Virus record (IMG/VR): IMGVR_UViG_3300033153_008196
Coordinates: 1 to 39,546 of that record
From: a virus
Direction: 5' to 3' (one strand)
Length of the DNA stretch: 39,546 nucleotides
Shown here: piece after piece, positions 1-39,546 of the stretch
How positions within the stretch are numbered: position 1 is the stretch's first letter
Layout of the letters: every line of letters begins with the position of its first letter
Translations under genes and position numbers: made by a program
The notes under the pieces: model-generated
Databases searched by the model: none
What the model saw: only the letters and a program-made list of their open reading frames with translations
Told to the model about the DNA's origin: nothing

Positions 1-142
1 TCGAACGAACCTTACCCCGAGGAAGGAATAAGAGACCGACGAACCCCAGTAACAATACAAGCAAGCATAATCCGCATGCGCGTAGAACCCAGCAACGTAG
101 TCGTTCTTTCGGTTTAAATCAAATGGTTGCTTAATAAAAAAA
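1..142 (-). repeat. Inverted copy of the variable C-terminal domain (fragment)
   Basis: Read on the minus strand, this segment matches 39225-39366 on the plus strand without gaps. The only differences are the terminal base and six bases inside the variable codons. It encodes a C-terminal domain ending in LGVRFVR but has no upstream N-terminal part: homology stops at a run of seven A (136-142), right where the next plus-strand gene begins. It is either a promoterless cassette, one arm of an inverted repeat pair, or an assembly or amplification chimera at the contig end. The variable part is about 1-87. Confidence 0.8.
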
Positions 143-639
143 TGGAAATCACAAAAATATCAGAACTACAAGATAAGCCAAAGAAATATAAAAAGAAACC
201 TATAATAATAATAGCTTCGGAGGTTTTTGAAAAAGAAATGAAAGAATTAGAGAACCTTAAAGAACAACTAAAAAAAGAAACTGATAAATCTGAATGGCTT
301 AAAATACCAGAATTAAAAATTGAAATTCAAATTGAAATTCATCACAAAAACCAAACTTATACAAATTGCGAAAAAGATTTAAACACAGGCGAATCAATAC
401 CAACCTACGAGCAGATTCAATGGTTAAGAAATTCTAAATACAAAAACCAATTAAATTTAGATGATACTTACGAATTTGTTCAGAATCCAGATAATATTTC
501 TAAAGAAAACGGCTATGTTGCTAGGTTCTACGCGTATTCGGATTGTGCTTGCTTGAGTTGTGACTGGGGTTCGTCGGGCTCTGGTTCCGTCCTCGGGGTA
601 AGGTTCGTTCGGAAGTTGAAAGTTGAAAAATTAAGATGA
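142..639 (+). CDS. Variable-domain protein, probable DGR target (copy B)
   Basis: The protein has about 165 aa. The N-terminal half contains a lysine/glutamate-rich coiled coil followed by a DKSEWLKIP motif, also found as DKPEWIKIP in the right-end paralogue (38917-39387). The C-terminal 45 residues form a compact domain (FYAYSD...WGSS...LGVRFVRK) of the C-type-lectin-like kind diversified by DGRs. Nine codons there vary between the three copies in this window, almost all in positions 1 and 2. I prefer the ATG at 142 to the in-frame TTG at 127, because 127-141 belongs to the inverted copy. The stop overlaps the next start (ATGA). The ligand is unknown. No signal peptide is visible, so it is probably cytoplasmic or virion-associated. 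Confidence 0.75.
   Translation: MEITKISELQDKPKKYKKKPIIIIASEVFEKEMKELENLKEQLKKETDKSEWLKIPELKIEIQIEIHHKNQTYTNCEKDLNTGESIPTYEQIQWLRNSKYKNQLNLDDTYEFVQNPDNISKENGYVARFYAYSDCACLSCDWGSSGSGSVLGVRFVRKLKVEKLR
526..612 (+). repeat. Variable region (VR) copy B
   Basis: This stretch aligns base for base with 39280-39366 and with the complement of 1-87. Conserved stretches (TTCTACGCG at the left, CTCGGGGTAAGGTTCGTTCG at the right) flank codons that differ: TGT/TAT/TAT, AGT/TAT/TAT, GAC/TGC/TAC, GGC/GTC/GTC and GGT/GAT/TAT in copies B/C/A. Third positions are identical. This is what adenine-specific mutagenesis of an AAY-rich template produces. The invariant GC-rich right end is a candidate initiation-of-homing site. 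Confidence 0.75.
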
Positions 640-983: not shown

Positions 984-1230
984 TTTTTCAAACTACGCAC
1001 CTCAAAGCGTATCGGACAAAGGGAAATCTCACGAGGACGCTATAGCGTCAACTCGTGCCTCACTTCGTTCGGTCGGCGAACAACAAATAAGCGGAAAATC
1101 AATTCGCTTCGCTCAATCGCTTCGTGCGATAAATGATTTTCCCAAATCGCCTACGGCGACTTCGCTTATTCTTTCCATTATGCCTAATTTCAAAATCGCC
1201 CTCCACAGCGGGGGGAAACTATTACGATGA
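976..1230 (+). CDS. ORF over palindromic repeat island, probably not a functional protein
   Basis: A short open frame (about 84 aa from ATG 976) has arginine/serine-rich, low-complexity composition (for example STRASLRSVGEQQ). It lies almost entirely on nested inverted repeats (1031-1170), and its GC content is clearly higher than that of its neighbours. A ribosome site (GGAGGTCAAG) precedes ATG 976 and its stop overlaps the helicase start, so it may be translated as a spacer that keeps the operon coupled. I regard it as a repeat inserted between two genes rather than an ancestral viral gene. Confidence 0.35.
   Translation: MINFSNYAPQSVSDKGKSHEDAIASTRASLRSVGEQQISGKSIRFAQSLRAINDFPKSPTATSLILSIMPNFKIALHSGGKLLR
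1031..1170. repeat. Nested palindrome island
   Basis: Perfect or near-perfect inverted repeats follow each other: a 14-bp palindrome 1036-1049 extended by ACGAG (1031-1035) and CTCGT (1052-1056); GTTCG 1067-1071 with CGAAC 1077-1081; an outer pair AATAAGC 1086-1092 with GCTTATT 1164-1170; an inner pair GGAAAATCA 1093-1101 with TGATTTTCC 1134-1142; and small hairpins 1116-1130 and 1147-1159. Composition differs from flanking AT-rich genes, which suggests a mobile or host-derived repeat. Confidence 0.85.
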
Positions 1231-2480
1231 TAGAAAAATTCAATAAAATAAAACAAATGAGTGAAAGTTTAGATTTAGAACTTGATAGTCTAAAGAGAGA
1301 AGCAGAATTAAAACAAAAAGAATATCAAGAGAAAATATCAAACATTTCTAAAATAACTCAAATAACTGAAGGATTAAATGAAGAAGAATTTAAGAATTTT
1401 GTTAGAGAACCTTATGCTGTTGTTCCAACTGGAAAACAAGAAGAATGGTATGTAATTGTTCCAAAATTTATAAAGATGAATCTTGGTTGGTTAGACCACA
1501 TAACAGAAACTTATAATGTTTTTAGGATAAATAAGTTTATGAAATGGTTAGGAAACATACCATTAGATATTGAAAAGAAATTTAAGTTTGATGTTAAACT
1601 TCCTTTAAAAGTTTTTGATGGAAAAGTTTTATCTGGGAAAGAATATCAAGAAGAAACTTGGAATAAATATAATAAGTTTTTAACAGGAAGAGAAGGAAAA
1701 GATAAACTTAAAATTAAAAGAGGATACGAGTTTAGATTATTAGCCCAAATGATTTCTGATGGAATTTTACCTTTTATGCCAAAACCAATAGAAGATGAAG
1801 ATTTAAGAGATGTTAATTTAAATTTTGAATTAAGAGATTATCAAAGAGAAGGATGGAATAAATTTAAAGAAGTCGGAGCAGTAGGAATTTATTGGGCTTA
1901 TTCTGCTGGTAAAACTTTTTTTGGTTTATATGCTGGAGCAAAATTGAAAGGAAATAAATTTGTTGTCTGCCCAACTACAACATTAGTAGAACAATGGAAT
2001 GATAGAATAAATACCTATTTACCAAATAATAAACACGAGTTTGAAGTTCTTACTTATCACTCTTTTCATAAATTAAAAAATAAAGAATATGTTTTAGGAA
2101 TATTTGACGAGTGCCAACACCTTCCAGCAAATACCTTTTCAAAGTTTGCAACATTAAATATGAAGTATAGAATTGGATTATGCTTAGATAAAAATACATT
2201 AGTTGAAACAAAAAAAGGGAAAAAGATGGTTAAATCATTAAAAATAGGAGAAAAAGTTAAGTCATTCAATTTTCAGAAACAAAAAGAAGAATACAAACCA
2301 ATTGTTAATATATGGAATACGAAAAAGGACACATTAGAAATCTCTTTTTCAACACCAGAAGGAATAAGAAAAATAAAGTGTAGTCCAGAACATAAGATTT
2401 TTGTTAATGGAAAATTCACAAAAGCGAAAGATTTAAGTAGCGGTGAAACCATAATATTTAGGAGTAAAAATGCCAATTAA
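1227..2480 (+). CDS. SF2 helicase N-terminal part fused to N-terminal intein domain
   Basis: Residues 1-318 are the N-extein. After a coiled-coil start they carry SF2 DNA helicase motifs: a Q-like LRDYQREGW segment, motif I AYSAGKT, motif Ia CPTTTLVEQW, and motif II DECQ. The frame then enters an intein at Cys (codon 2181-2183, CLDKNTLVETKKG) and includes the block B region (CSPEHKIF). It stops at 2478-2480, immediately after the N-splicing domain. The helicase resembles the XPB/UvsW-like group used by viruses for branch migration or unwinding. The rest of the helicase is on the overlapping frame from 2470. If the halves splice, the mature helicase is about 500 aa. Confidence 0.85.
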   Translation: MIEKFNKIKQMSESLDLELDSLKREAELKQKEYQEKISNISKITQITEGLNEEEFKNFVREPYAVVPTGKQEEWYVIVPKFIKMNLGWLDHITETYNVFRINKFMKWLGNIPLDIEKKFKFDVKLPLKVFDGKVLSGKEYQEETWNKYNKFLTGREGKDKLKIKRGYEFRLLAQMISDGILPFMPKPIEDEDLRDVNLNFELRDYQREGWNKFKEVGAVGIYWAYSAGKTFFGLYAGAKLKGNKFVVCPTTTLVEQWNDRINTYLPNNKHEFEVLTYHSFHKLKNKEYVLGIFDECQHLPANTFSKFATLNMKYRIGLCLDKNTLVETKKGKKMVKSLKIGEKVKSFNFQKQKEEYKPIVNIWNTKKDTLEISFSTPEGIRKIKCSPEHKIFVNGKFTKAKDLSSGETIIFRSKNAN

Positions 2481-3183
2481 AGTAAAATGCCCAATTTGTA
2501 AAAAAGAATTGAAAGTAAAACCAAGCAAGGTTAGAAGACAGAAAAATGTTTTTTGTTCTATAAAATGTAAGAATGAATTTCAAAAAGGAAAACCAACATG
2601 GAATAAAGGAATGAAAGGAGAATATACTCTATCAGAAAAACATAAAAAACATATCGCAGAAGGAATAAAAGGAAATGAAAAGATAAAAACCACACAATTT
2701 AAAAGAGGGCATAAATGGAAAGAAACAGAAAAAGAAAAAAGAATTAATACAATAAAAAGGGAAAAATCTCTCTCTGGTAAAAGGAATGGTATGTATGGGA
2801 GAAATGGAAAATTAAATCCAAATTGGAAAGGAGGAACAAGTTACTGGAGAAAAAAATACTATAATTCAATTCCCTATAAAGAATGGCAAAAAGCAGTTTT
2901 TAAAAGAGATGATTATAAGTGCCAAATATGTGGGGATACTAAAAAAGAGAAAAAGATTATTCATGCCCATCATATAAAATCCTTTGCTAAATATCCAGAA
3001 TTAAGATTAGAATTAGATAATGGAATAACTTTGTGTAATATTTGTCATGCGAAAGTTCATTCAAAAAGATTTCAATTAGGAAAAGTTTTAAGTGTTGAGA
3101 AAAAAGAAAACAAATCAGATATGGTTGATATTGAAGTAAAAGATAATAATAATTTTTATGCAAATGGAATTCTTGTTCATAAT
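2181..3183 (+). other. Split intein with embedded HNH domain, inserted in helicase motif III
   Basis: The intein starts at Cys1 (2181) and ends at His-Asn (Asn codon 3181-3183), with Ser as the +1 residue. Joining the exteins gives RIGL plus SATPYREDG, an intact helicase motif III, which fixes both junctions. The C-terminal blocks are seen as NNNFYANGILVHN. Between the two splicing domains the frame is broken: the first frame stops at 2480 and the second begins at ATG 2470 behind TTTAGGAG. Splicing would therefore have to occur in trans, or through a +1 shift inside 2455-2480. Confidence 0.85.
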
Positions 3184-3732
3184 TCAGCTACACCATATCG
3201 TGAAGATGGAAGAACAGATTTTATTTTTGCATTAACAGGATTTCCAATTGGATTAAGTTGGGATAATTTAATTGAATTGGGTGTTTTAGAAATCCCAGAT
3301 GTAAGAGTTTATATTGTTTCAGATTGGAGAGCAAAAGAAAGAAAATTAAAAGAAATTCTTGCACAAGGAGATAAAAAAACCATAATTTTCTGCGATGGAA
3401 TTTCTTTAGGGAATAAACTTTCAAAAGAATTAGGAGTTCCATTTGTTCATGGTGGAACAAGTAAAAGATTAGAAATAATTAATAGTGCTGAAGTTTCAAT
3501 AGTTTCAAGAGTAGGAGACGAGGGATTAAGTATCCCAGAACTTCAAAGAATTATAGAGATAGATTTTTTATTTGGAAGTAGAAGACAAGAAGGTCAAAGA
3601 CTTGGAAGATTGTTTCATGGAGAAGATAAAGGAGAACATATTATATTGATGACTGAAAAAGAATTTGAAGATTATGGGAAAAGATTACACGCAATAACAG
3701 AGAAAGGAATTAAATTGGAGATAATAAGATGA
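2470..3732 (+). CDS. HNH endonuclease + C-terminal intein + helicase C-terminal part
   Basis: This 420-aa frame opens with a zinc-knuckle region (CPICKKEL...CSIKC), then NUMOD-like basic repeats (WNKGMKG) and an HNH nuclease (CQICGDT...HAHHIKS...CNICHAKVH, about residues 155-200). The intein C-terminal blocks end in His-Asn at residue 238. The remaining 182 residues are the helicase C-extein: SATPYREDG (motif III) and RRQEGQRLGRLFHG (motif VI). Start ATG 2470 has a good ribosome site, and the same string AATATTTAGGAGTAAAA precedes the gene at 33557, which supports a genuine start. It overlaps the upstream frame by 11 nt. Confidence 0.85.
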   Translation: MPIKVKCPICKKELKVKPSKVRRQKNVFCSIKCKNEFQKGKPTWNKGMKGEYTLSEKHKKHIAEGIKGNEKIKTTQFKRGHKWKETEKEKRINTIKREKSLSGKRNGMYGRNGKLNPNWKGGTSYWRKKYYNSIPYKEWQKAVFKRDDYKCQICGDTKKEKKIIHAHHIKSFAKYPELRLELDNGITLCNICHAKVHSKRFQLGKVLSVEKKENKSDMVDIEVKDNNNFYANGILVHNSATPYREDGRTDFIFALTGFPIGLSWDNLIELGVLEIPDVRVYIVSDWRAKERKLKEILAQGDKKTIIFCDGISLGNKLSKELGVPFVHGGTSKRLEIINSAEVSIVSRVGDEGLSIPELQRIIEIDFLFGSRRQEGQRLGRLFHGEDKGEHIILMTEKEFEDYGKRLHAITEKGIKLEIIR

Positions 3733-3896
3733 AAGAAATTATCCAAGAAATAGAAAAGTTTGGAGAGTTTTATAGAGAAACCGACGATAAAATAATTAGA
3801 GGATGTTACAATAATCATATTGAGCTAATCATAACAGAGGCTCCAAAATCAGAACAATATAATTTATGTAATTACTGGGCGAGGTTGATACGATGA
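3729..3896 (+). CDS. Small hypothetical protein (55 aa)
   Basis: The start overlaps the helicase stop (ATGA) and the stop overlaps the methyltransferase start (ATGA), so it sits as a perfectly coupled operon member. It is acidic at the N-terminus (MKEIIQEIEKFGEF) and contains a CNYWARL ending. No domain is recognised. Confidence 0.65.
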   Translation: MKEIIQEIEKFGEFYRETDDKIIRGCYNNHIELIITEAPKSEQYNLCNYWARLIR

Positions 3897-4495
3897 AAAG
3901 AAAATTAAAAAATCTCAATTTCTCTATTGGTTATGATGGTGATTATTTCCCGGAAGTTTTCACAGCTCATCCAATGCCATCATTGGAAGAAAGAAATGAT
4001 AAATTATTTATTACAGAAGGAGCAGAAAAGTTATTTTATGACAATCGATTAAAAGTTATAGATTTGTTTTCCGGGTGCGGGGGAATGTCATTAGGATTAG
4101 TAAATGCAGGATTAAGAATAGTCGCATCAGTAGAAAACGATGATTCGGCGCATTGCACTTATGCTTATAATATTCCAACCTTTCAGATGGCTCCGATACA
4201 TTGTTATTCTAAAGATATAAGAGAAATATCAGGCAGAGAAATTTTATTTAATCTCGGGTTAGAGGTTGGCGAAGTTGATGTTGTAGTTGGCGGTCCGCCT
4301 TGTCCATCTTTTAGTTATGCCGGTAAAAGAAAAATAGGCGACGAGAGAGATTTGCTTTTATTTGAATTTAAGAGATTAATTGAAGAAATTCAGCCAAAAA
4401 CTTGGGTTATGGAAAACGTGCCAGGCATTAAAACAAAAAAATTCCCAGACGGAACTTTAGTTTTGGATAAATTTTTAGAAGGCATGGAAAGATGA
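3893..4495 (+). CDS. C5 cytosine DNA methyltransferase, C-terminally truncated
   Basis: The 200-aa protein shows the AdoMet motif I (VIDLFSGCGGMSLGL, about residues 55-69), motif IV with the catalytic Cys (GGPPCPSFSYAG, about 133-144) and motif VI (ENVPG, about 173-177). Family members normally exceed 300 aa and continue into motif VIII, a target-recognition domain and motifs IX-X, which are all absent. It may be an inactive remnant, or its missing half may be supplied by another protein. A working enzyme would protect viral DNA from restriction. It is preceded and followed by 4-nt overlaps. Confidence 0.85.
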   Translation: MKRKLKNLNFSIGYDGDYFPEVFTAHPMPSLEERNDKLFITEGAEKLFYDNRLKVIDLFSGCGGMSLGLVNAGLRIVASVENDDSAHCTYAYNIPTFQMAPIHCYSKDIREISGREILFNLGLEVGEVDVVVGGPPCPSFSYAGKRKIGDERDLLLFEFKRLIEEIQPKTWVMENVPGIKTKKFPDGTLVLDKFLEGMER

Positions 4496-4602
4496 ATGAA
4501 CTATGCGATTGCGGGCGGAAATTGGCAACTATTCAAACTACTGACGATGGTGGAATGTGTTCTAAATGTTTTGAGGAGAAATATGGCAAAAGACCCGAAT
4601 AA
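4492..4602 (+). CDS. Zinc-ribbon microprotein (36 aa)
   Basis: A very small coding region with paired cysteines (CDCG near the N-terminus and CSKC near residue 23) that would bind one zinc ion. It overlaps the methyltransferase stop and its last codons (FEEKYGK) contain the ribosome site and ATG of the next gene. Similar zinc microproteins recur at 16806, 33999 and 35826. A nucleic-acid or protein adaptor role is likely but not shown. Confidence 0.65.
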   Translation: MNELCDCGRKLATIQTTDDGGMCSKCFEEKYGKRPE

Positions 4603-5100
4603 AGTAAAACAGGGAAAGAGAAATAAGGCTCAGGGTGCAGCGTTTGAGTTACGCGTGCGGAAAGATTTAGAGGAGAAAGGTTGGATAGTTAGCAAGTGGC
4701 AGAATAATGTTGAGTTGCCTGAAATAATTAAATCTAAGAAAAATCCTGAATTATTAATGGATTGTCTTGATAAGATTAAATCTTTTGGTAAATTAATCCC
4801 AGCAAAAACAAAATGGGCTGGTCCAGGGAGACCTATGGTTCTTGGGAGTGGTTTTCCAGACTTTGTGGCGTTTACGAAAAATACTAAAATTATTAAATGT
4901 AGTCTTGTAAAAGATGAATTTAGACAAGTAGTCATTGGCGTAGAATCTAAAATAAACGGATACTTGACCAAAGAAGAGCGCGCAAAATGCAAGTGGCTTT
5001 TAGATAATTCCGTTTTCTCGAGGATACTCATAGCGCGCAAGACGAAAGTTAAGAATAAGATTAAAATAATCTACGAGGATTTTGAGGAGAAATATGGCAA
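4569..5100 (+). repeat. 21-bp direct repeat around two gene starts (4569-4589 and 5080-5100)
   Basis: The same 21 bases, containing GAGGAGAAATATGGC, occur at both positions. In each case they encode the end of one protein (FEEKYG) and, in another frame, the ribosome site and ATG of the next gene. A looser version (GGAGAAGTATGG, end of a protein in KEKYG) lies at 18891-18902. Confidence 0.85.
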
Positions 5101-18912: not shown

Positions 18913-19114
18913 TATTCTGGCCAGGGAGAATCGTGTTATGATTAATTCTATGAAAGGAGATATTAAAGCTATTCGAGGAGATATTAAAGATACCAGAATA
19001 GAAATGACTAATATATCAAATCATTATTCAAAACGACTTCCACTTCCTGCGACGATAATGATTACAATTCTTGCAAGTTTATGCACTGGGTTAATTGTGA
19101 GGGCGTTAACATGA
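18899..19114 (+). CDS. Coiled-coil protein with C-terminal membrane helix
   Basis: The 71-aa product has a central amphipathic helix (MKGDIKAIRGDIKDTRIEM) and a C-terminal membrane segment (ATIMITILASLCTGLIV). This layout resembles haemolysin XhlA-type and holin-accessory proteins. A role in membrane damage at virus release is possible but not shown. Confidence 0.55.
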   Translation: MVAVNILARENRVMINSMKGDIKAIRGDIKDTRIEMTNISNHYSKRLPLPATIMITILASLCTGLIVRALT

Positions 19115-19776
19115 GTTTTAAAAAAGGAAATGTCCCATGGAACAAAGGGACTAAAGGAGTTATGAAAGCGTGGAATAAAGGTAAAAAAGGATGTGTAAAT
19201 AGTGGGAGTTTTAAAGTTGGTCATGTGGTTTCGCAAGAAGTCAGGGATAAACTTTCAATGGCGAATGTTGGGAAAGAATATTCCGAAGAATATAAAAAGA
19301 ATATGTCGATGATAAAAAAAGGGCAAAAACATAGTGATGAAACTAAAAGAAAAATAAGCAAAAGATTAACTGGAAGAAAATTATCAGAGGAGCATAGATT
19401 AAAATTATCAAAAGCATTCAAAGGAAGAACACCTTGGAATAAAGGTATTACCGGAGAGGAAAGTCATAGTTGGAAAGGAGATAATATGTCTTTTAATAGA
19501 AAATTGAGAAGGAGCAGTTTATTTAAGATTTGGAGAGAAGCAGTTTATTTGAGAGATAATTTCACTTGTCAAAATCCAAACTGCGAATTTTGTAATAATA
19601 AAATTGGTGCTTATTTACATTCTCATCACATAAAACCACTAAGTTTATTCCCAGAATTAGCATTTAAAATTGATAATGGAATAACTTATTGTGCCGAATT
19701 TCATTTAAAATCAGGATTACATAAAAATATTCAAGAAAATGAAATAGTTGTAGGAGTGAAGTATGGGCGAATATGA
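19111..19776 (+). CDS. HNH endonuclease with NUMOD3 repeats
   Basis: The 221-aa protein begins with WNKGTKG/WNKGKKG motifs, then several NUMOD3-type DNA-binding repeats (SEEYKKNMSMIKKGQKHSDE, SEEHRLKLSKAFKG) and a C-terminal HNH (CQNPNCEFC...LHSHHIKPLS...CAEFH). The last histidine cluster deviates from the CxxCH form, so activity is uncertain. It overlaps both neighbours, having inserted cleanly between the membrane protein and a connector gene. Confidence 0.8.
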   Translation: MSFKKGNVPWNKGTKGVMKAWNKGKKGCVNSGSFKVGHVVSQEVRDKLSMANVGKEYSEEYKKNMSMIKKGQKHSDETKRKISKRLTGRKLSEEHRLKLSKAFKGRTPWNKGITGEESHSWKGDNMSFNRKLRRSSLFKIWREAVYLRDNFTCQNPNCEFCNNKIGAYLHSHHIKPLSLFPELAFKIDNGITYCAEFHLKSGLHKNIQENEIVVGVKYGRI

Positions 19777-29328: not shown

Positions 29329-31238
29329 AATTAACAAAAGTAATAATTGCAGGAATTACTGTCAAGGATTCAGACGGATCTCCGGACCCAAGCAAATTAA
29401 TAAGTTGGGAATCTGAAAAAGATGACGACGCAATTTCAGAAGCGGAGATAATTCTTCCAAGAAGTGTAAATGATTTAGTTGATTTAAACAATGGTCAATT
29501 AGTAGAAATATGGGCCGGATGGACAACCTCGACGGACACAAGATATTTTTATGGTTATATTGATAAAATACAACCAGACGGAGCAACCATAAAGATTATG
29601 TGTAAAAACGAAATGATTAAGTTAGTTAGAAAAAACGTCAATCATATTTATGATAGCTCAATAGATGCAAGCGCCGGAGAAGTAAGTGAAATAGTTGAAG
29701 ATTTAATTGAAACCTATGGTGGAATGACTGGAACAGTCCAGGCAAGCGGAACTGAAGATGGAAAACGAGTTGATCAGTTTAAATGTATTAATGCGGATAT
29801 TTTTGAGAGAGTTATGGCTCTTAAAAAAGCTCTCGACTGGGAATTATATTATAACGATTCAGATAGGGTAGTATATTTTGAACCACTTGGTTATAATAAT
29901 TCAGGGAAAACACTAACGGTAGGAACAGAAATAGTAAGTATGCCAGAATGGGATTTTGATGATTCAAATATGATTAACGATTTGAGGGTAGACGGAGCGA
30001 CTACTCAAACAAATATAACCGAATCCGGTCAAATTGAAACTGATTCAGGATATTTAAATGAAAGTATTTTGTTAACTAATACTCCAGATATAGTAGAGCT
30101 TTATATGGATGCAGCTGATCCTCCAACTACCCAACAAACAGGCGGAACTAAAGATGCATCTACTGGGCATTTTTATTATGTAGATAGAGAAAATAAGAAA
30201 ATCATGCCCACAACAGATACGACATTTACAACAGATCATTATGCGATAGTCAATTATGTTTTTTCTGCGCCTGCGCCAGTTCACATGATAAATCAAGATA
30301 GTATAGACACTTATGGAATCAAACAAAAACAAATGGATTTATCTGATATAAGTTCTGTAGCTGATGCAGAGAGCCGAGTAAGTAGTATTTTGGCAAAACG
30401 GAGTGTTCCGTTTATTACAGGTAAAATTTTAGTTAAAAGTGAAAATGCTAACATCCCAAATCGTGGAGAGATAGTCTGCATAGTTGATACAAAAACTACA
30501 AAAGTAAATGGATTAAATTTAAGCGGAGAATATATCGTAAATAAAATAAAATATAAATTTCCGAGTGCCGTCGAGGAATTAGAAATCGGAGACAAACAAT
30601 GGAGATTGGCAGACTGGCAACAAACTACAGAAGAACGATTAAAGAGACTAGAGGAACAATTTGTAAGAAATCAAGATATTTTATTAGAATTAGTTGACAT
30701 TCAACACACAAATACAGAAAACTTTTTGAAACCAACGCCTAGATATTTTACGACAATTACTGAGGCATATAATACAACAAATAATATTATGATATGGGGA
30801 AATGCTACTCATGGGATTTGGGGAACAGACAAATGGGGAACTCAGGGAAATGCTTTTGATTCAGAGGTTACGGAATTTATGATGCAGTATGAAAATTTAT
30901 ATACAGAAAATTTCATTGATTCCGATTTTGAAGATACAGGAACTACTGATTGCACGTGGGATGATGATGGGAGTATAGTATTTACTTCGGGAGAAATTGC
31001 CCAAAGCTTATATGTTGATTATGCAAATGGAACTATCACAACGGCCACTTTAACAAGCACGGAAGTGACTGGAGATTTTGATTATGAAATGACCGCCGAC
31101 GGAACAAATTGGGAAAGTGTCACGAGTGGAACAGCCCACACATTTTCAGATACAGGAACAGATTTAAGGTGGCGCGCAACTGAGAATGCAGCAAGCACAG
31201 GTGAAATAAGTAAAATTATAGTGAGTGATTATCACTAA
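29325..31238 (+). CDS. Tail hub/baseplate protein (gp27-like) with C-terminal binding domain
   Basis: Residues 1-400 follow the layout of phage tail hub proteins: WESEKDDDAISEAEIILP, then VEIWAGW...YFYGYIDKIQP, and a later domain IPNRGEIVCIVD. A coiled coil (RLKRLEEQFVRNQDIL, about 440-460) and an extra beta domain (about 530-637, ITTATLTSTEVTGDFDYEM) follow and may bind the host surface. The largest tail protein here. Confidence 0.7.
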   Translation: MKLTKVIIAGITVKDSDGSPDPSKLISWESEKDDDAISEAEIILPRSVNDLVDLNNGQLVEIWAGWTTSTDTRYFYGYIDKIQPDGATIKIMCKNEMIKLVRKNVNHIYDSSIDASAGEVSEIVEDLIETYGGMTGTVQASGTEDGKRVDQFKCINADIFERVMALKKALDWELYYNDSDRVVYFEPLGYNNSGKTLTVGTEIVSMPEWDFDDSNMINDLRVDGATTQTNITESGQIETDSGYLNESILLTNTPDIVELYMDAADPPTTQQTGGTKDASTGHFYYVDRENKKIMPTTDTTFTTDHYAIVNYVFSAPAPVHMINQDSIDTYGIKQKQMDLSDISSVADAESRVSSILAKRSVPFITGKILVKSENANIPNRGEIVCIVDTKTTKVNGLNLSGEYIVNKIKYKFPSAVEELEIGDKQWRLADWQQTTEERLKRLEEQFVRNQDILLELVDIQHTNTENFLKPTPRYFTTITEAYNTTNNIMIWGNATHGIWGTDKWGTQGNAFDSEVTEFMMQYENLYTENFIDSDFEDTGTTDCTWDDDGSIVFTSGEIAQSLYVDYANGTITTATLTSTEVTGDFDYEMTADGTNWESVTSGTAHTFSDTGTDLRWRATENAASTGEISKIIVSDYH

Positions 31239-31245
31239 CAACAAA

Positions 31246-31254
31246 ATTTAAATA
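31246..31254 (+). promoter_or_regulatory. TATA box before distal tail genes
   Basis: AATTTAAATAC lies 21-30 nt before ATG 31275, compatible with a leaderless transcript for 31275-32656. Confidence 0.6.
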
Positions 31255-31274
31255 CAATGGAAATATAGAATACT

Positions 31275-31673
31275 ATGGCAACGGGTCAAGTCGTGACTAA
31301 TAATGGATTAAAATTGGCATTAAATAGAATTTTCAAAGTTACGCCAGATTATCTAGCACCATCAAAATTTAAAATAGGAACTGGAACTACTACTCCGACA
31401 GTTACAGACACCGACGTAGAAACCGGTGTGAATATTAACGGCGGAGCGATTAAATCTTTTGTGACTGGATATCCAATTTTAGATGAATCAAATTTCCAAG
31501 CTACGTTTAGATGTTTTTTAGATACTACTGAGGGAAACGGAAACAACCTAACTGAATTCGGATTGTTTAATGAAGATGGATCTCCTCTTATGTATAATCA
31601 TGCAGTATTTACGTCAATAACTAAAACAACATCTGTTCAGATTTCATTTATTCAGAAGGATCAATTCGCATGA
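31275..31673 (+). CDS. Distal tail/baseplate fibre-base protein
   Basis: The 132-aa protein (NNGLKLALNRIFKVTPDYL, FKIGTGTTTPTVTDT, LTEFGLFNEDGSPLMY) resembles short tail proteins that attach fibres to the baseplate. It has its own TATA box and overlaps the next gene by 4 nt. Confidence 0.55.
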   Translation: MATGQVVTNNGLKLALNRIFKVTPDYLAPSKFKIGTGTTTPTVTDTDVETGVNINGGAIKSFVTGYPILDESNFQATFRCFLDTTEGNGNNLTEFGLFNEDGSPLMYNHAVFTSITKTTSVQISFIQKDQFA

Positions 31674-32167
31674 CAATTCCAAATACTTTTTCAAATGGGA
31701 CAGCCGCTGACGGAACGGAAGTTAATGAGAATTTTACTTATGTGACAAATAAAATTCATCAAATTTATACAGACAATGGATTAGATATTAGTGAGACTGG
31801 AGCTGGTGATTCAAATAGTGTAGAATTAGATGCTGTTAGTTCGGCAAATTTAGCTGGTAGAACATATTTAAAAATATCTATAACAGCAGCGGCAAGATCG
31901 AGTGGGACTAGTGCTCCTCAAATAAATTTCAAAATAGAAACAAAAGAAATAGGTGGTGAATATTCAGATTCTTTAGCTATAATAGATTGGGTAGAGGCGG
32001 ATGTTACACAATTAACAACTCGAACATTAAGTTGGGTTCATACTCTAACAGGTGGAGAAAAAACAAATGGCGTTCAAGTTCAATTAACTACAAGTGCTCC
32101 GGCTAATGGCGATGGAGTTCAACAATTTACTAATATTCAAATAATTGAGGAATCGATAGGTAACTAA
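31670..32167 (+). CDS. Tail appendage protein
   Basis: The 165-aa protein opens with TFSNGTAADGTEVNENFTYV, a fibre-base motif found in many phage tail proteins, followed by a beta-sandwich-like region (LKISITAAARSSGTSAPQIN). Likely the last structural tail protein. Confidence 0.6.
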   Translation: MTIPNTFSNGTAADGTEVNENFTYVTNKIHQIYTDNGLDISETGAGDSNSVELDAVSSANLAGRTYLKISITAAARSSGTSAPQINFKIETKEIGGEYSDSLAIIDWVEADVTQLTTRTLSWVHTLTGGEKTNGVQVQLTTSAPANGDGVQQFTNIQIIEESIGN

Positions 32168-32168
32168 T

Positions 32169-32489
32169 ATGTTTTTATTAACTTGGTTAATGTGGACGGT
32201 GATTATTTTAGTAGCAATGACAATAGATAATTTTAATTGGATCACAAGTTCACCTGAGTGGTCAAAAATAAGAAAGAGAAGTTATTTAGGATTTTTAAAA
32301 TATGTTTGGAAAGATAGAGTAATTCCAGTTTGGACAGATTATCGAGATATTATCCCGGCAATAATAACAGGATTTATGGCGACTTTGATATGGTTTGGAT
32401 TTTATTGGCAGGCGGCTGTAGTTTTTGTTATAGTGTTGAAGATTAATCTTAAAATTATTTATAAAAATAAGGAGAGATCTTGGAAATGA
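32169..32489 (+). CDS. Membrane protein with three predicted helices
   Basis: The 106-aa protein has hydrophobic segments at about 2-18 (FLLTWLMWTVIILVAM), 62-80 and 82-98 (WQAAVVFVIVLKINLKI). Location after the tail genes and pairing with a second membrane protein suggest a holin-like pair used for release. Confidence 0.55.
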   Translation: MFLLTWLMWTVIILVAMTIDNFNWITSSPEWSKIRKRSYLGFLKYVWKDRVIPVWTDYRDIIPAIITGFMATLIWFGFYWQAAVVFVIVLKINLKIIYKNKERSWK

Positions 32490-36038: not shown

Positions 36039-36593
36039 ATGGAAAAATTAACAAGAAATGTTAAGGCAGTTTCTCTCGGGAGAATAGAGGATGGTTCAAT
36101 TGGATTTTTAACGACTCAGAAAGGAGAAGAAAAACTATGGTACAATGTAGCTGGCGAAAAAGAAATACTTGAAGAACTTGTAAAAAATGTGATTTCAAAA
36201 GGAAATACTATTGAGTTTGAGTACAATAATAATGTAGTCGGTAGCTTGAAGTTAATCGAAAAAGCTAAAGAAGAAAAAAAGAGCTGGGCAGACGATATGA
36301 CGAACTTTGAGGATTTATTGAGCGATATGCACAATAAGTTTAAAGGATCATTCAGTATCAAGACAGAATTAATATCTGTAGATTATGAAAAAAGCCAGGC
36401 AATCTTTAGTGCTGCAGTAAGTGTAGAATATGAAAATCGAACTACAGTATTTACAGGCCACGGAGATGCTGAAGGAATCAAAAGTGAAAATATTAAACCA
36501 CACTTTATTCGTATGGCAGAAACTCGAGCCGTGGCCAGGGCCTTACGCTTTGCTACAAATAATGCAAAGGTATCTAAAGAGGAAACCAAATAA
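36039..36593 (+). CDS. Single-strand annealing protein (Rad52/Erf-like)
   Basis: The 184-aa protein has an N-terminal beta module (residues 5-75, LWYNVAGEKE...VVGSLKLIEK) that could be an OB-type ssDNA-binding part, then a C-terminal half with VSVEYENRTTVFTGHGDAEG and the signature FIRMAETRAVARALRFAT (157-173), as in viral annealing proteins. Start follows AGAAGGAGGTAG. It probably drives recombination-dependent replication together with the helicase and resolvase-like nuclease. Confidence 0.65.
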   Translation: MEKLTRNVKAVSLGRIEDGSIGFLTTQKGEEKLWYNVAGEKEILEELVKNVISKGNTIEFEYNNNVVGSLKLIEKAKEEKKSWADDMTNFEDLLSDMHNKFKGSFSIKTELISVDYEKSQAIFSAAVSVEYENRTTVFTGHGDAEGIKSENIKPHFIRMAETRAVARALRFATNNAKVSKEETK

Positions 36594-36597
36594 TAAT

Positions 36598-37107
36598 ATG
36601 GCACCACTAAAGGGATTTATACCATGGAATAAAGGACTTACTAAACATACTAATAAGTCACTAATGGAAACATCTAAAAGATTTAGTGGTAAAAATAATC
36701 CAAGATTTGGCAAAATACCACACAATAAAGGAATTCATGATAAAAGTATAAAATCTAAATGTTTGACTTGTGGAAAAGAGTTTTATTATTTTAAGGGTTG
36801 CTCGACTGGGAAATTTTGTTCAAGGAAATGTTTTGGAAAATATTATAGCGGAGAAAATAATCCTTATTGGAATGGTGGATCACCAAACTCGTATTATGGA
36901 AAGATTTGGAAAGTTATAAGAGAGGATGTTATTAGAAAATATGGAAATAGGTGTCAGAATTGTGGTTCGAAAGAAAGAATACAAATTCATCATATAATTC
37001 CTTTCAAAAAAATTGGTAAACATTCGTTAGATAATCTCATACCACTATGTATTTCTTGCCATAAGCGAGAAGAATGGAAAATAATTAAATCCAGGAGGAA
37101 TAAATAA
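36598..37107 (+). CDS. HNH endonuclease with NUMOD-type motifs
   Basis: The 169-aa protein begins with FIPWNKGLTK, has a zinc knuckle (CLTCGKEF...CSRKC) and an HNH core (CQNCGSKERIQIHHIIPFKK ... PLCISCHKREE). It lies four bases after the annealase stop and overlaps the next start by one base, a clean insertion in the recombination cluster. Confidence 0.85.
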   Translation: MAPLKGFIPWNKGLTKHTNKSLMETSKRFSGKNNPRFGKIPHNKGIHDKSIKSKCLTCGKEFYYFKGCSTGKFCSRKCFGKYYSGENNPYWNGGSPNSYYGKIWKVIREDVIRKYGNRCQNCGSKERIQIHHIIPFKKIGKHSLDNLIPLCISCHKREEWKIIKSRRNK

Positions 37108-38182: not shown

Positions 38183-38376
38183 AAGTCATAAGTTTAAGCA
38201 AATACAGAATTAGAAAATCACTCGAAGAACAGAAAATATGTAAGATGACATTTTTAAAATATTTTAATCCCTTATTTTATATATTTTTATTCATTTCATT
38301 GTGTGTGATGATAATATCTAAAACCGTAGAAGATGTTGAAGGTTTTCTTTGGGAAATAGAAAAAAAAATACAATGA
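38179..38376 (+). CDS. Single-pass membrane protein (65 aa)
   Basis: A basic N-terminal helix is followed by one hydrophobic segment (YFNPLFYIFLFISLCVMIIS) and an acidic tail. Overlaps neighbours by 4 nt on both sides. No family recognised. Confidence 0.6.
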   Translation: MKVISLSKYRIRKSLEEQKICKMTFLKYFNPLFYIFLFISLCVMIISKTVEDVEGFLWEIEKKIQ

Positions 38377-38810
38377 GAATAATAGGATTAACCAATATAT
38401 ACGAAGGCAAAGTTTATGTAATTGATGAAAAAAAGTTAATCGTTAAGTTAGATTGCCTATGTCCTGATTTTCAATTCAGACGAATCAAAAAAGTAGGAGA
38501 ACTTAACGATATTAAGTATTTTGCTTTGCCTTGTAAACACCTCAAACCAATAGTCGAGGCACTCGAAAAACAAGGATATAAGTTAAAAGTTCCCGAAGAA
38601 ATGGTAGGGTTAGACAAACTAACTCCCAAACTAAAACAAGAATTATTAGAACGAGCAAACTATAAATGCGAGGCAGATAATTGTAAAGAAGTAGAAAATT
38701 TGGAAATCCACAGAAAAACTCGAAAGTCAAATGGCGGTAAATATAATAAAAAAAATTGTTCGGTTTTATGCAACGAATGTCATAAGACTCGACATAGGAA
38801 CGAGTTTTAA
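38373..38810 (+). CDS. SWIM zinc-finger protein fused to HNH nuclease
   Basis: The 145-aa protein has CLCPDFQF...LPCKHL (about residues 29-57), the CxC...CxH pattern of a SWIM finger, and then an HNH domain (YKCEADNCKEVENLEIHRKT ... CNECHKTRH, about 102-142). The fusion is unusual: SWIM fingers bind DNA or protein, so it may direct the nuclease. It starts in a 4-nt overlap with the membrane protein. Confidence 0.75.
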   Translation: MRIIGLTNIYEGKVYVIDEKKLIVKLDCLCPDFQFRRIKKVGELNDIKYFALPCKHLKPIVEALEKQGYKLKVPEEMVGLDKLTPKLKQELLERANYKCEADNCKEVENLEIHRKTRKSNGGKYNKKNCSVLCNECHKTRHRNEF

Positions 38811-38887
38811 TGTCTAAATCTTCATAAGGACAAAAAAGTTTTATTGGAGTATCTGGATAAAATAACAAAATTATAATATTAGAAACA

Positions 38888-38895
38888 TTTAAATA
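38888..38895 (+). promoter_or_regulatory. TATA box of the right-end variable-domain gene
   Basis: AGAAACATTTAAATA (TATA part 38888-38895) is 22-29 nt before ATG 38917. The same 15 bases occur in reverse orientation before the minus-strand HNH gene (about 33222-33236). Confidence 0.65.
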
Positions 38896-38916
38896 GTAAT
38901 TATAATTATAATAATT

Positions 38917-39387
38917 ATGAAAGCACAAGATATTCAAAAACAAATAAAAAAACTGGAAAGCAAAAAAGAAGAAATTGACAAAAAAATCAATTCTTTTAAA
39001 ATTAAATTAGAAAACGAATCTGATAAACCTGAATGGATTAAAATTCCAAAAACTAACTATGAGGTTACAAAAAATGTATTATATAAAGGAAAATCTTATG
39101 ATGAAATTATAAAATTAAAAAAGCCAGAAGAAGAATTACTAACTCTAAAAATTATAGGAATAATTTGTGAACATCCAGATTTAATAAAACAATTAAAGAT
39201 GGACGGAAGTTCATCAAAAGACGATTTTTTTATTAAGCAACCATTTGATTTAAACCGAAAGAACGACTACGTTGCTGGGTTCTACGCGTATTCGGATTAT
39301 GCTTACTTGTATTGTTGCTGGGGTTCGTCGGTCTCTGATTCCGTCCTCGGGGTAAGGTTCGTTCGGAAGTTGAAAGATAAGAAATGA
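38917..39387 (+). CDS. Variable-domain protein, probable DGR target (copy C)
   Basis: This 156-aa protein starts with a coiled coil (IQKQIKKLESKKEEIDKKIN), then DKPEWIKIP shared with the paralogue at 142-639, a middle region, and the variable C-terminal domain (FYAYSDYAYLYCCWGSSVSD ... LGVRFVRK). It has a clear leaderless promoter, so it is expressed alone. Its last 142 bases recur inverted at the left end of the window. No reverse transcriptase lies nearby. Confidence 0.75.
   Translation: MKAQDIQKQIKKLESKKEEIDKKINSFKIKLENESDKPEWIKIPKTNYEVTKNVLYKGKSYDEIIKLKKPEEELLTLKIIGIICEHPDLIKQLKMDGSSSKDDFFIKQPFDLNRKNDYVAGFYAYSDYAYLYCCWGSSVSDSVLGVRFVRKLKDKK
39280..39366 (+). repeat. Variable region (VR) copy C
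   Basis: Gapless match to 526-612 and to the complement of 1-87. Against the inverted copy the six internal differences are TAT/CAT, TCG/GCG, TAC/TGC, TGC/TAC, GAT/TAT and GTC/TTC, all at codon position 1 or 2. Flanking bases are identical. Confidence 0.75.
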
Positions 39388-39391
39388 TAAA

Positions 39392-39523
39392 ATGGCATTA
39401 ACACAAATAGATTTTAACGAAAAAGAAGAAGCGATTATTGAAAAAGTTTCTAAAAAATATAAAATCAATAAACCAAAATCCGTAAAGAAAATAATTTCAG
39501 AATATAAGGAGAGTAAAGAATGA
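39392..39523 (+). CDS. Small ribbon-helix-helix-like protein (43 aa)
   Basis: MALTQIDFNEKEEAIIEKVS and NKPKSVKKIISEYKE follow the strand-helix-helix pattern of small DNA-binding regulators. It begins five bases after the variable-domain gene and may control it. Confidence 0.55.
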   Translation: MALTQIDFNEKEEAIIEKVSKKYKINKPKSVKKIISEYKESKE

Positions 39524-39546
39524 AAACAAAAAGAATCACCGAAACA
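39520..39546 (+). CDS. Partial gene running off the right end
   Basis: ATG 39520 overlaps the previous stop (ATGA) and gives MKTKRITET before the window ends. Too short to identify. Confidence 0.4.

Follow-up and report, generated by a model that had tools for sequence, protein, structure and literature searches.

The window analysed here, the whole 39,546-nucleotide stretch of IMG/VR record IMGVR_UViG_3300033153_008196, is best explained as the greater part of the genome of a tailed archaeal virus with two nanoarchaeal-type DGR target genes, A and B (Table 1), a reading in which we place high confidence. The assignment to a tailed virus was made from genes encoding a terminase (TerL), a portal/MuF fusion, an SU10-type MCP, a tail tube, a tape measure and a baseplate hub; the named records best by coverage for the portal were haloarchaeal tailed viruses, at 25% identity. 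The host is probably a DPANN (nanoarchaeal-type) archaeon, as judged at the sequence level from the locations of homologous cassettes and from the distant structural genes. Both contig ends lie inside the DGR cassette, with gene B, a small ORF and the start of a next gene at the right end and gene A at the left end, an order that fits the related locus L001 and is found adjacent in both L001 and L064. A circularly permuted genome is probable, in which a stretch between positions 39546 and 142 was left unassembled. Across the right end, window positions 38881-39531 are 74% identical in nucleotide sequence to L001 9056-9710, and the gene cut by the contig end is possibly another target gene, its first nine residues, the only ones available, resembling the start of a target in locus L019 (MKTKKISEN).

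Table 1. Coordinates of the features of the window and of the RT-16 RNAs of related loci.
Feature	Position	Strand	Basis or remarks
Most likely an alternative gene B VR allele with 56 nt of gene B flank, in an inverted join to the start of gene A; not an intact gene	1..143	-	96% complementary to 39224-39365
Gene A, encoding a 165-aa DGR target protein with a coiled-coil N-terminus and a C-terminal variable domain	142..639	+	ORF
VR block of gene A	517..622	+	Ends in IMH-like CTCGGGGT, 3' flank identical; gapless against 39271-39376
Small HNH-domain ORF, start ATG 38373	38349..38810	+	In place of the relatives' template and most of the RT
Putative DGR RT remnant (LHKDKKVLLEYLDKITK..., just past the expected YVDD position), both sides deleted	38819..38901	+	76% nt identity over 75 nt to L001 RT
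Gene B, encoding a 156-aa DGR target protein with a predicted C-type lectin fold	38917..39387	+	Homology and AF2 model
VR block of gene B	39271..39376	+	Gapless alignment with the gene A block
Small ORF between target genes	39392..39523	+	Counterpart of L001 9567-9701
First codons of another gene (MKTKRITET...), truncated at the contig end	39520..39546	+	Sequence
RT-16 RNA	L001 7755-7906; L019 2675-2828; L064 7831-8004; L065 9440-9579; 21 other loci		Rfam

Three 87-nt copies of a variable region (VR), at 526-612, 39280-39366 and the complement of 1-87, had been reported in a first-pass annotation; their coordinates were right and the copies aligned without gaps. Nine codons (12 alignment columns) vary, with changes at codon positions 1 or 2 only and all third positions fixed, as had been described, and the sole difference among the three copies outside the variable codons is the contig's first base (CGG/CGA). 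When the 12 columns were compared with the L064 template by gapless alignment, 11 coincided with template adenines (hypergeometric p = 2e-6), and the same 11 of 12 was obtained with the homologous templates of L001 (p = 1e-5) and L065 (p = 7e-6); the twelfth column (TCG/GCG) fits the ACG codon that the earlier reading had predicted. Since no template repeat (TR) fitting the window VRs was seen, their adenine specificity is taken from these homologous TRs. Genes A and B have a common 3' block of approximately 105 nt with 13 differences, all located where related templates have an adenine or a predicted adenine, these being the 12 VR columns and an A/G difference at 523, a position that is likewise A in related templates (GCTAGG). 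The gene bodies 5' of the block are ~72% identical, and the block itself contains no non-adenine difference. The IMH motif CTCGGGGT is present at the VR 3' end in all three copies in the window, and the VRs of the relatives end in CTTGGGGT or CTCGGGGT where the TR has GGAAT or GAAAT. The window IMH, CGGGGT, is of the nanoarchaeal type, reported as TGGGGT (Paul et al., 2015; PMC4372165); a hairpin with a GNRA or GRA loop was sought downstream of the VR and weak folds only were found. The template of the window VRs is predicted to have the form TTCTAC(G/A)CGAAYACGGATTATGCTWACTTGAATTGTAACWGG...TCGTCG...AAYTCTAATTCCAACCTCGGAAT.

The copy at the left contig end, one of the three variable-domain copies of the first-pass annotation, is most likely not a third target. 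The reverse complement of 1-143 differs from 39224-39366 at 7 positions in 143 nt: the 56 nt preceding the VR are unchanged, six differences lie in VR codons (positions 1/2) and one is at the contig edge; the copy lacks the 5' part of the gene, including its start, and ends at a run of A, abutting the start of gene A on the opposite strand. It is therefore most likely another VR allele of gene B in an inverted join, the join at the poly-A having arisen either as a chimera during assembly or amplification or by genuine rearrangement; alternatively, it may derive from a third, closely related target gene. With differences confined to VR codons and a flank that matches gene B exactly, the additional gene B allele hints at variation within the sampled population, the evidence for which consists of this one fold-back allele. 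The same copy was tried as a candidate template and rejected, as it has no adenines at the variable positions. Gene A has approximately 30 extra N-terminal residues (142-228) compared with its L064 counterpart, its true upstream sequence being masked by the fold-back join.

Complete cassettes were found in four related loci (L001, L019, L064 and L065). In L001 (IMG/VR contig IMGVR_UViG_3300022542_001402), an RT-16 RNA, a template, an RT, a gene B homologue, a small ORF and a gene A relative follow one another in this order. The locus is 99.95% identical over 11.8 kb to L012 (JAUUWR010000025.1), which lies in a MAG with one contig encoding an IF5A-like protein, consistent with an archaeon. VR-TR differences fall on template adenines in 13/13 and 11/11 cases for the two L001 targets (24 in total), in 11/11, 17/17 and 11/11 cases for the three targets of L019, from the same MAG as L012 (39/39), and in 13/13 and 14/14 cases for L065 (27/27), amounting to 90 of 90 for these three clean cassettes; the corresponding counts for L064 are 9/11 and 11/16 (20/27), with 2 and 5 non-adenine changes. 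The cassette order is TR-RT-VP_B-small ORF-VP_A in L001 and TR-RT-VP-VP in L064 and L065, matched in the window by RT scar-B-small ORF...A; in L019 the target genes come first, followed by RT-16-TR-RT. Of 279 genomes sampled from one phylum, that of the archaeal MAG G009, 89 had RTs of this clade; we infer that the phylum is a DPANN one from the match to published nanoarchaeal DGRs and the small genomes. The complete cassettes, together with 20 further RT loci of the clade that have RT-16 upstream, bear out the first-pass annotation in its recognition of a DGR mutation signature and of a DPANN-type DGR. Among the proteins compared, the target genes are the only ones common to the window and L001, L064 and L065, and the cassette thus appears to have moved between unlike elements. 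The L001/L012 locus resembles the window in having gene B, the small ORF and the gene A relative in the same order and an RT peptide that matches the scar; unlike the window it has RT-16, TR and RT complete, and with only the target genes in common among the proteins compared it represents a different kind of element. Further cassettes of the L001 type were seen in genome G336, where contig C15 has two apparent DGR cassettes (2582-4777 and 29979-32177) and contig C24 a third; the template at C15:30012 is almost the same as that at C24:9431, so that a single RT might act on several targets there.

Genes A and B align with the targets of the RT-16/TR/RT cassettes in L001, L064, L065 and L019. 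Gene A matches the second target of the complete cassette in L064 with 74% amino acid identity across 116 aa, and gene B is 72% identical to L001 9092-9565 and 68% identical to L065 7779-8249, both in complete cassettes. No close relatives of gene B besides L001 were found in IMG/VR and none in phage records, and the target proteins had no family match in Pfam, PHROGs or NCBIfam. A C-type lectin fold with a C-terminal VR is predicted for gene B by an AF2 model (pLDDT 85): in VIA-align the model aligned over residues 37-156, and the great majority of the best rows were C-type lectin folds (Z 8-9, top Z 9.2), the match to BPP-1 Mtd (1yu2) having a Z of 8.1 over 116 residues, and the Foldseek match was weak (E only 0.1). 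Judging from the modelled fold, the target proteins would bind a ligand; a receptor-binding role in the virion is not implied, because they are short, stand-alone and encoded away from the tail genes. Given the VR pattern, the complete cassettes of the relatives, the CGGGGT IMH and the modelled C-type lectin fold, the DGR reading is strong, and the identification of genes A and B as nanoarchaeal-type DGR targets is well supported.

The window was found to contain neither an RT nor a template, in agreement with the earlier reading: no match to RVT_1 was obtained, tblastn and profile matches were confined to a scar of ~80 nt in a contig that is incomplete at the cassette, and an adenine-tolerant scan of both strands returned only the three VRs. 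RT-16 RNA was not found in the window. We read the segment directly upstream of gene B as an RT scar on the basis of its DNA alignment with L001 and of its position, which is the RT's place in L001. Its local alignment score is 60, whereas the highest value among 2000 shuffles was 48 and that among 731 other pieces of the window was 43; by protein profile alone it has E=0.5, and it does not stand out when compared with the other RTs tested. The adjacent HNH-domain ORF matches Pfam HNH with E=0.0013, below the curated cut-off, and an NCBIfam IscB-like HNH stretch with E=7e-7. A template search carried out in 371 DPANN-phylum genomes and in IMG/VR yielded none close enough to the window VRs: exact and degenerate patterns recovered the relatives' templates only, and when the window VRs were compared with the relatives' TRs none fitted, the best having 9 non-adenine mismatches in 79.

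The source of the RT and template was weighed among several explanations, and the weights given to an assembly gap, to supply in trans and to loss are judgements, not measurements. Diversification in trans by a host DGR, as had been suggested, is possible; however, there is an RT scar and the contig ends lie inside the cassette, so that the RT and TR may be in the assembly gap. A chance just short of even is given to an ordinary cis DGR with its RT and template in the unassembled stretch between the contig ends, the assembly having broken in repeats. Both ends are inside the cassette in the order found adjacent in L001 and L064, L019 has RT-16-TR-RT after its target genes, repeats and VR variation break assemblies, and the left end bears a chimeric fold-back; however, the scar upstream of gene B means that the original RT is gone and that a second copy would be needed, and the synteny of the cut gene depends on 9 residues. 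The scar speaks instead for a virus that has targets only, with RT and template supplied in trans by the host chromosome or by a different element, an explanation that we regard as plausible while rating it below even. A precedent is provided by G194:C11 (L095 10661-11104), a 61-kb tailed-virus-like contig with a tail-tube relative and an internal, isolated target gene, in which no RT, TR or RT-16 was found and whose MAG gave no RT match; the VR of this gene fits the TR of L019, from a different genome, with 2 non-adenine mismatches in 79, and the gene bodies are 79% identical. Target genes without an RT have already been reported from nanoarchaeal genomes (Paul et al., 2015; PMC4372165), and in line with that report G194:C11 indicates that RT-less targets exist in the group; the occurrence of RTs of the clade in the DPANN-phylum genomes given above also favours supply in trans. 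It is opposed by the finding of no TR fitting the window VRs in the 371 genomes or IMG/VR, and by the incompleteness of the MAGs (perhaps including G194) and of the window contig. We tentatively suggest, as something short of probable, that a tailed DPANN virus dropped its own DGR enzyme and borrows an RT and template from the host or from an element in the same cell, one retroelement diversifying several replicons.

It is improbable that the genes are fossil targets, their VRs frozen by a recent deletion of RT and TR. Such a loss would agree with a scar deleted on both sides, an HNH gene in its place and no RT, TR or RT-16 in the window, but the zero non-adenine differences between the A and B blocks and the gene B allele varying only at VR codons point to recent activity. 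An origin without any DGR, by gene duplication and diversifying selection or by shufflon-like recombination or inversion of alternative C-termini, is highly improbable: the inverted copy at the contig end would suit it, but third positions are fixed, the changes fall at the adenines of homologous templates and the homologues sit in complete RT/TR cassettes. Shufflon-type inversion was rejected as a candidate, the inverted copy having no gene start, the differences being base changes and not blocks, and no invertible arrangement being seen.

For the preferred DGR reading, the proposed mechanism is that a template RNA whose 5' domain is the structured RT-16 would be reverse-transcribed with errors at adenines, that the cDNA would replace the C-terminal ~70-80 nt of both genes through mutagenic retrohoming at the CGGGGT IMH, and that approximately nine residues of the C-type lectin ligand-binding face would be changed. 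DGR activity on the window VRs is likely to be current or very recent, as the VRs of genes A and B show no difference at any non-adenine site and a co-assembled gene B allele differs only at VR codons. In each of the 25 nanoarchaeal-type DGR loci whose sequence was inspected, RT-16 (RF03019) immediately precedes the template, ending at or a few bases from the 5' boundary of the template repeat, and in many loci the 5' end of RT-16 pairs with bases that directly follow the template (mean longest helix 9.1 bp, compared with a maximum of 8.3 in 200 re-pairings). RT-16 is probably the structured 5' domain of the archaeal DGR template RNA.

The nanoarchaeal (DUSEL4) DGRs (PMC4372165) are similar in their small targets, C-terminal VR, IMH ending in GGGGT and several targets, and RT-less targets with adenine-directed changes occur there too; they differ in belonging to cellular genomes, whereas the window targets are in a tailed virus, the adjoining RT is a scar and no TR was seen. 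ANMV-1 (Paul et al., 2015) is likewise an archaeal virus with a DGR-diversified protein of C-type lectin type, but its RT/TR/Avd cassette is complete and its putative tail-fibre target lies within the tail genes, whereas the window targets are short, stand-alone, away from the tail genes and without RT or Avd. With Bordetella phage BPP-1 Mtd the targets have in common a C-type lectin fold, modelled in the case of the window, that is diversified at template adenines; Mtd serves as the receptor-binding protein of the tail fibre and belongs to a complete cis cassette that includes Avd, whereas a virion role is not implied for the window targets. Nanoarchaeal-type DGR target genes are now placed in a tailed virus, and the scarred RT, the VRs identical at non-adenine sites and the isolated target of G194:C11, whose VR nearly fits the template of another genome, offer a concrete case in which to ask whether DGRs work across replicons.

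Some minor observations were also made. A target-like gene ending in RVARFYAYSDRAVLDCYRDPGYSDWSLGVR (L013 1619-2239), in a MAG with no RT match, lies beside a glmS-like gene on a chromosome-like archaeal contig. In the window, HNH/NUMOD-type homing endonuclease genes with repeated motifs are scattered at 2584-3036, 19081-19776, 36430-37107 and 38349-38810, one of them in the place of the lost RT, and positions 1227-3732 encode an XPB-like helicase with an intein-like Hint domain and an HNH endonuclease inside, read as two ORFs that overlap at 2470-2480.
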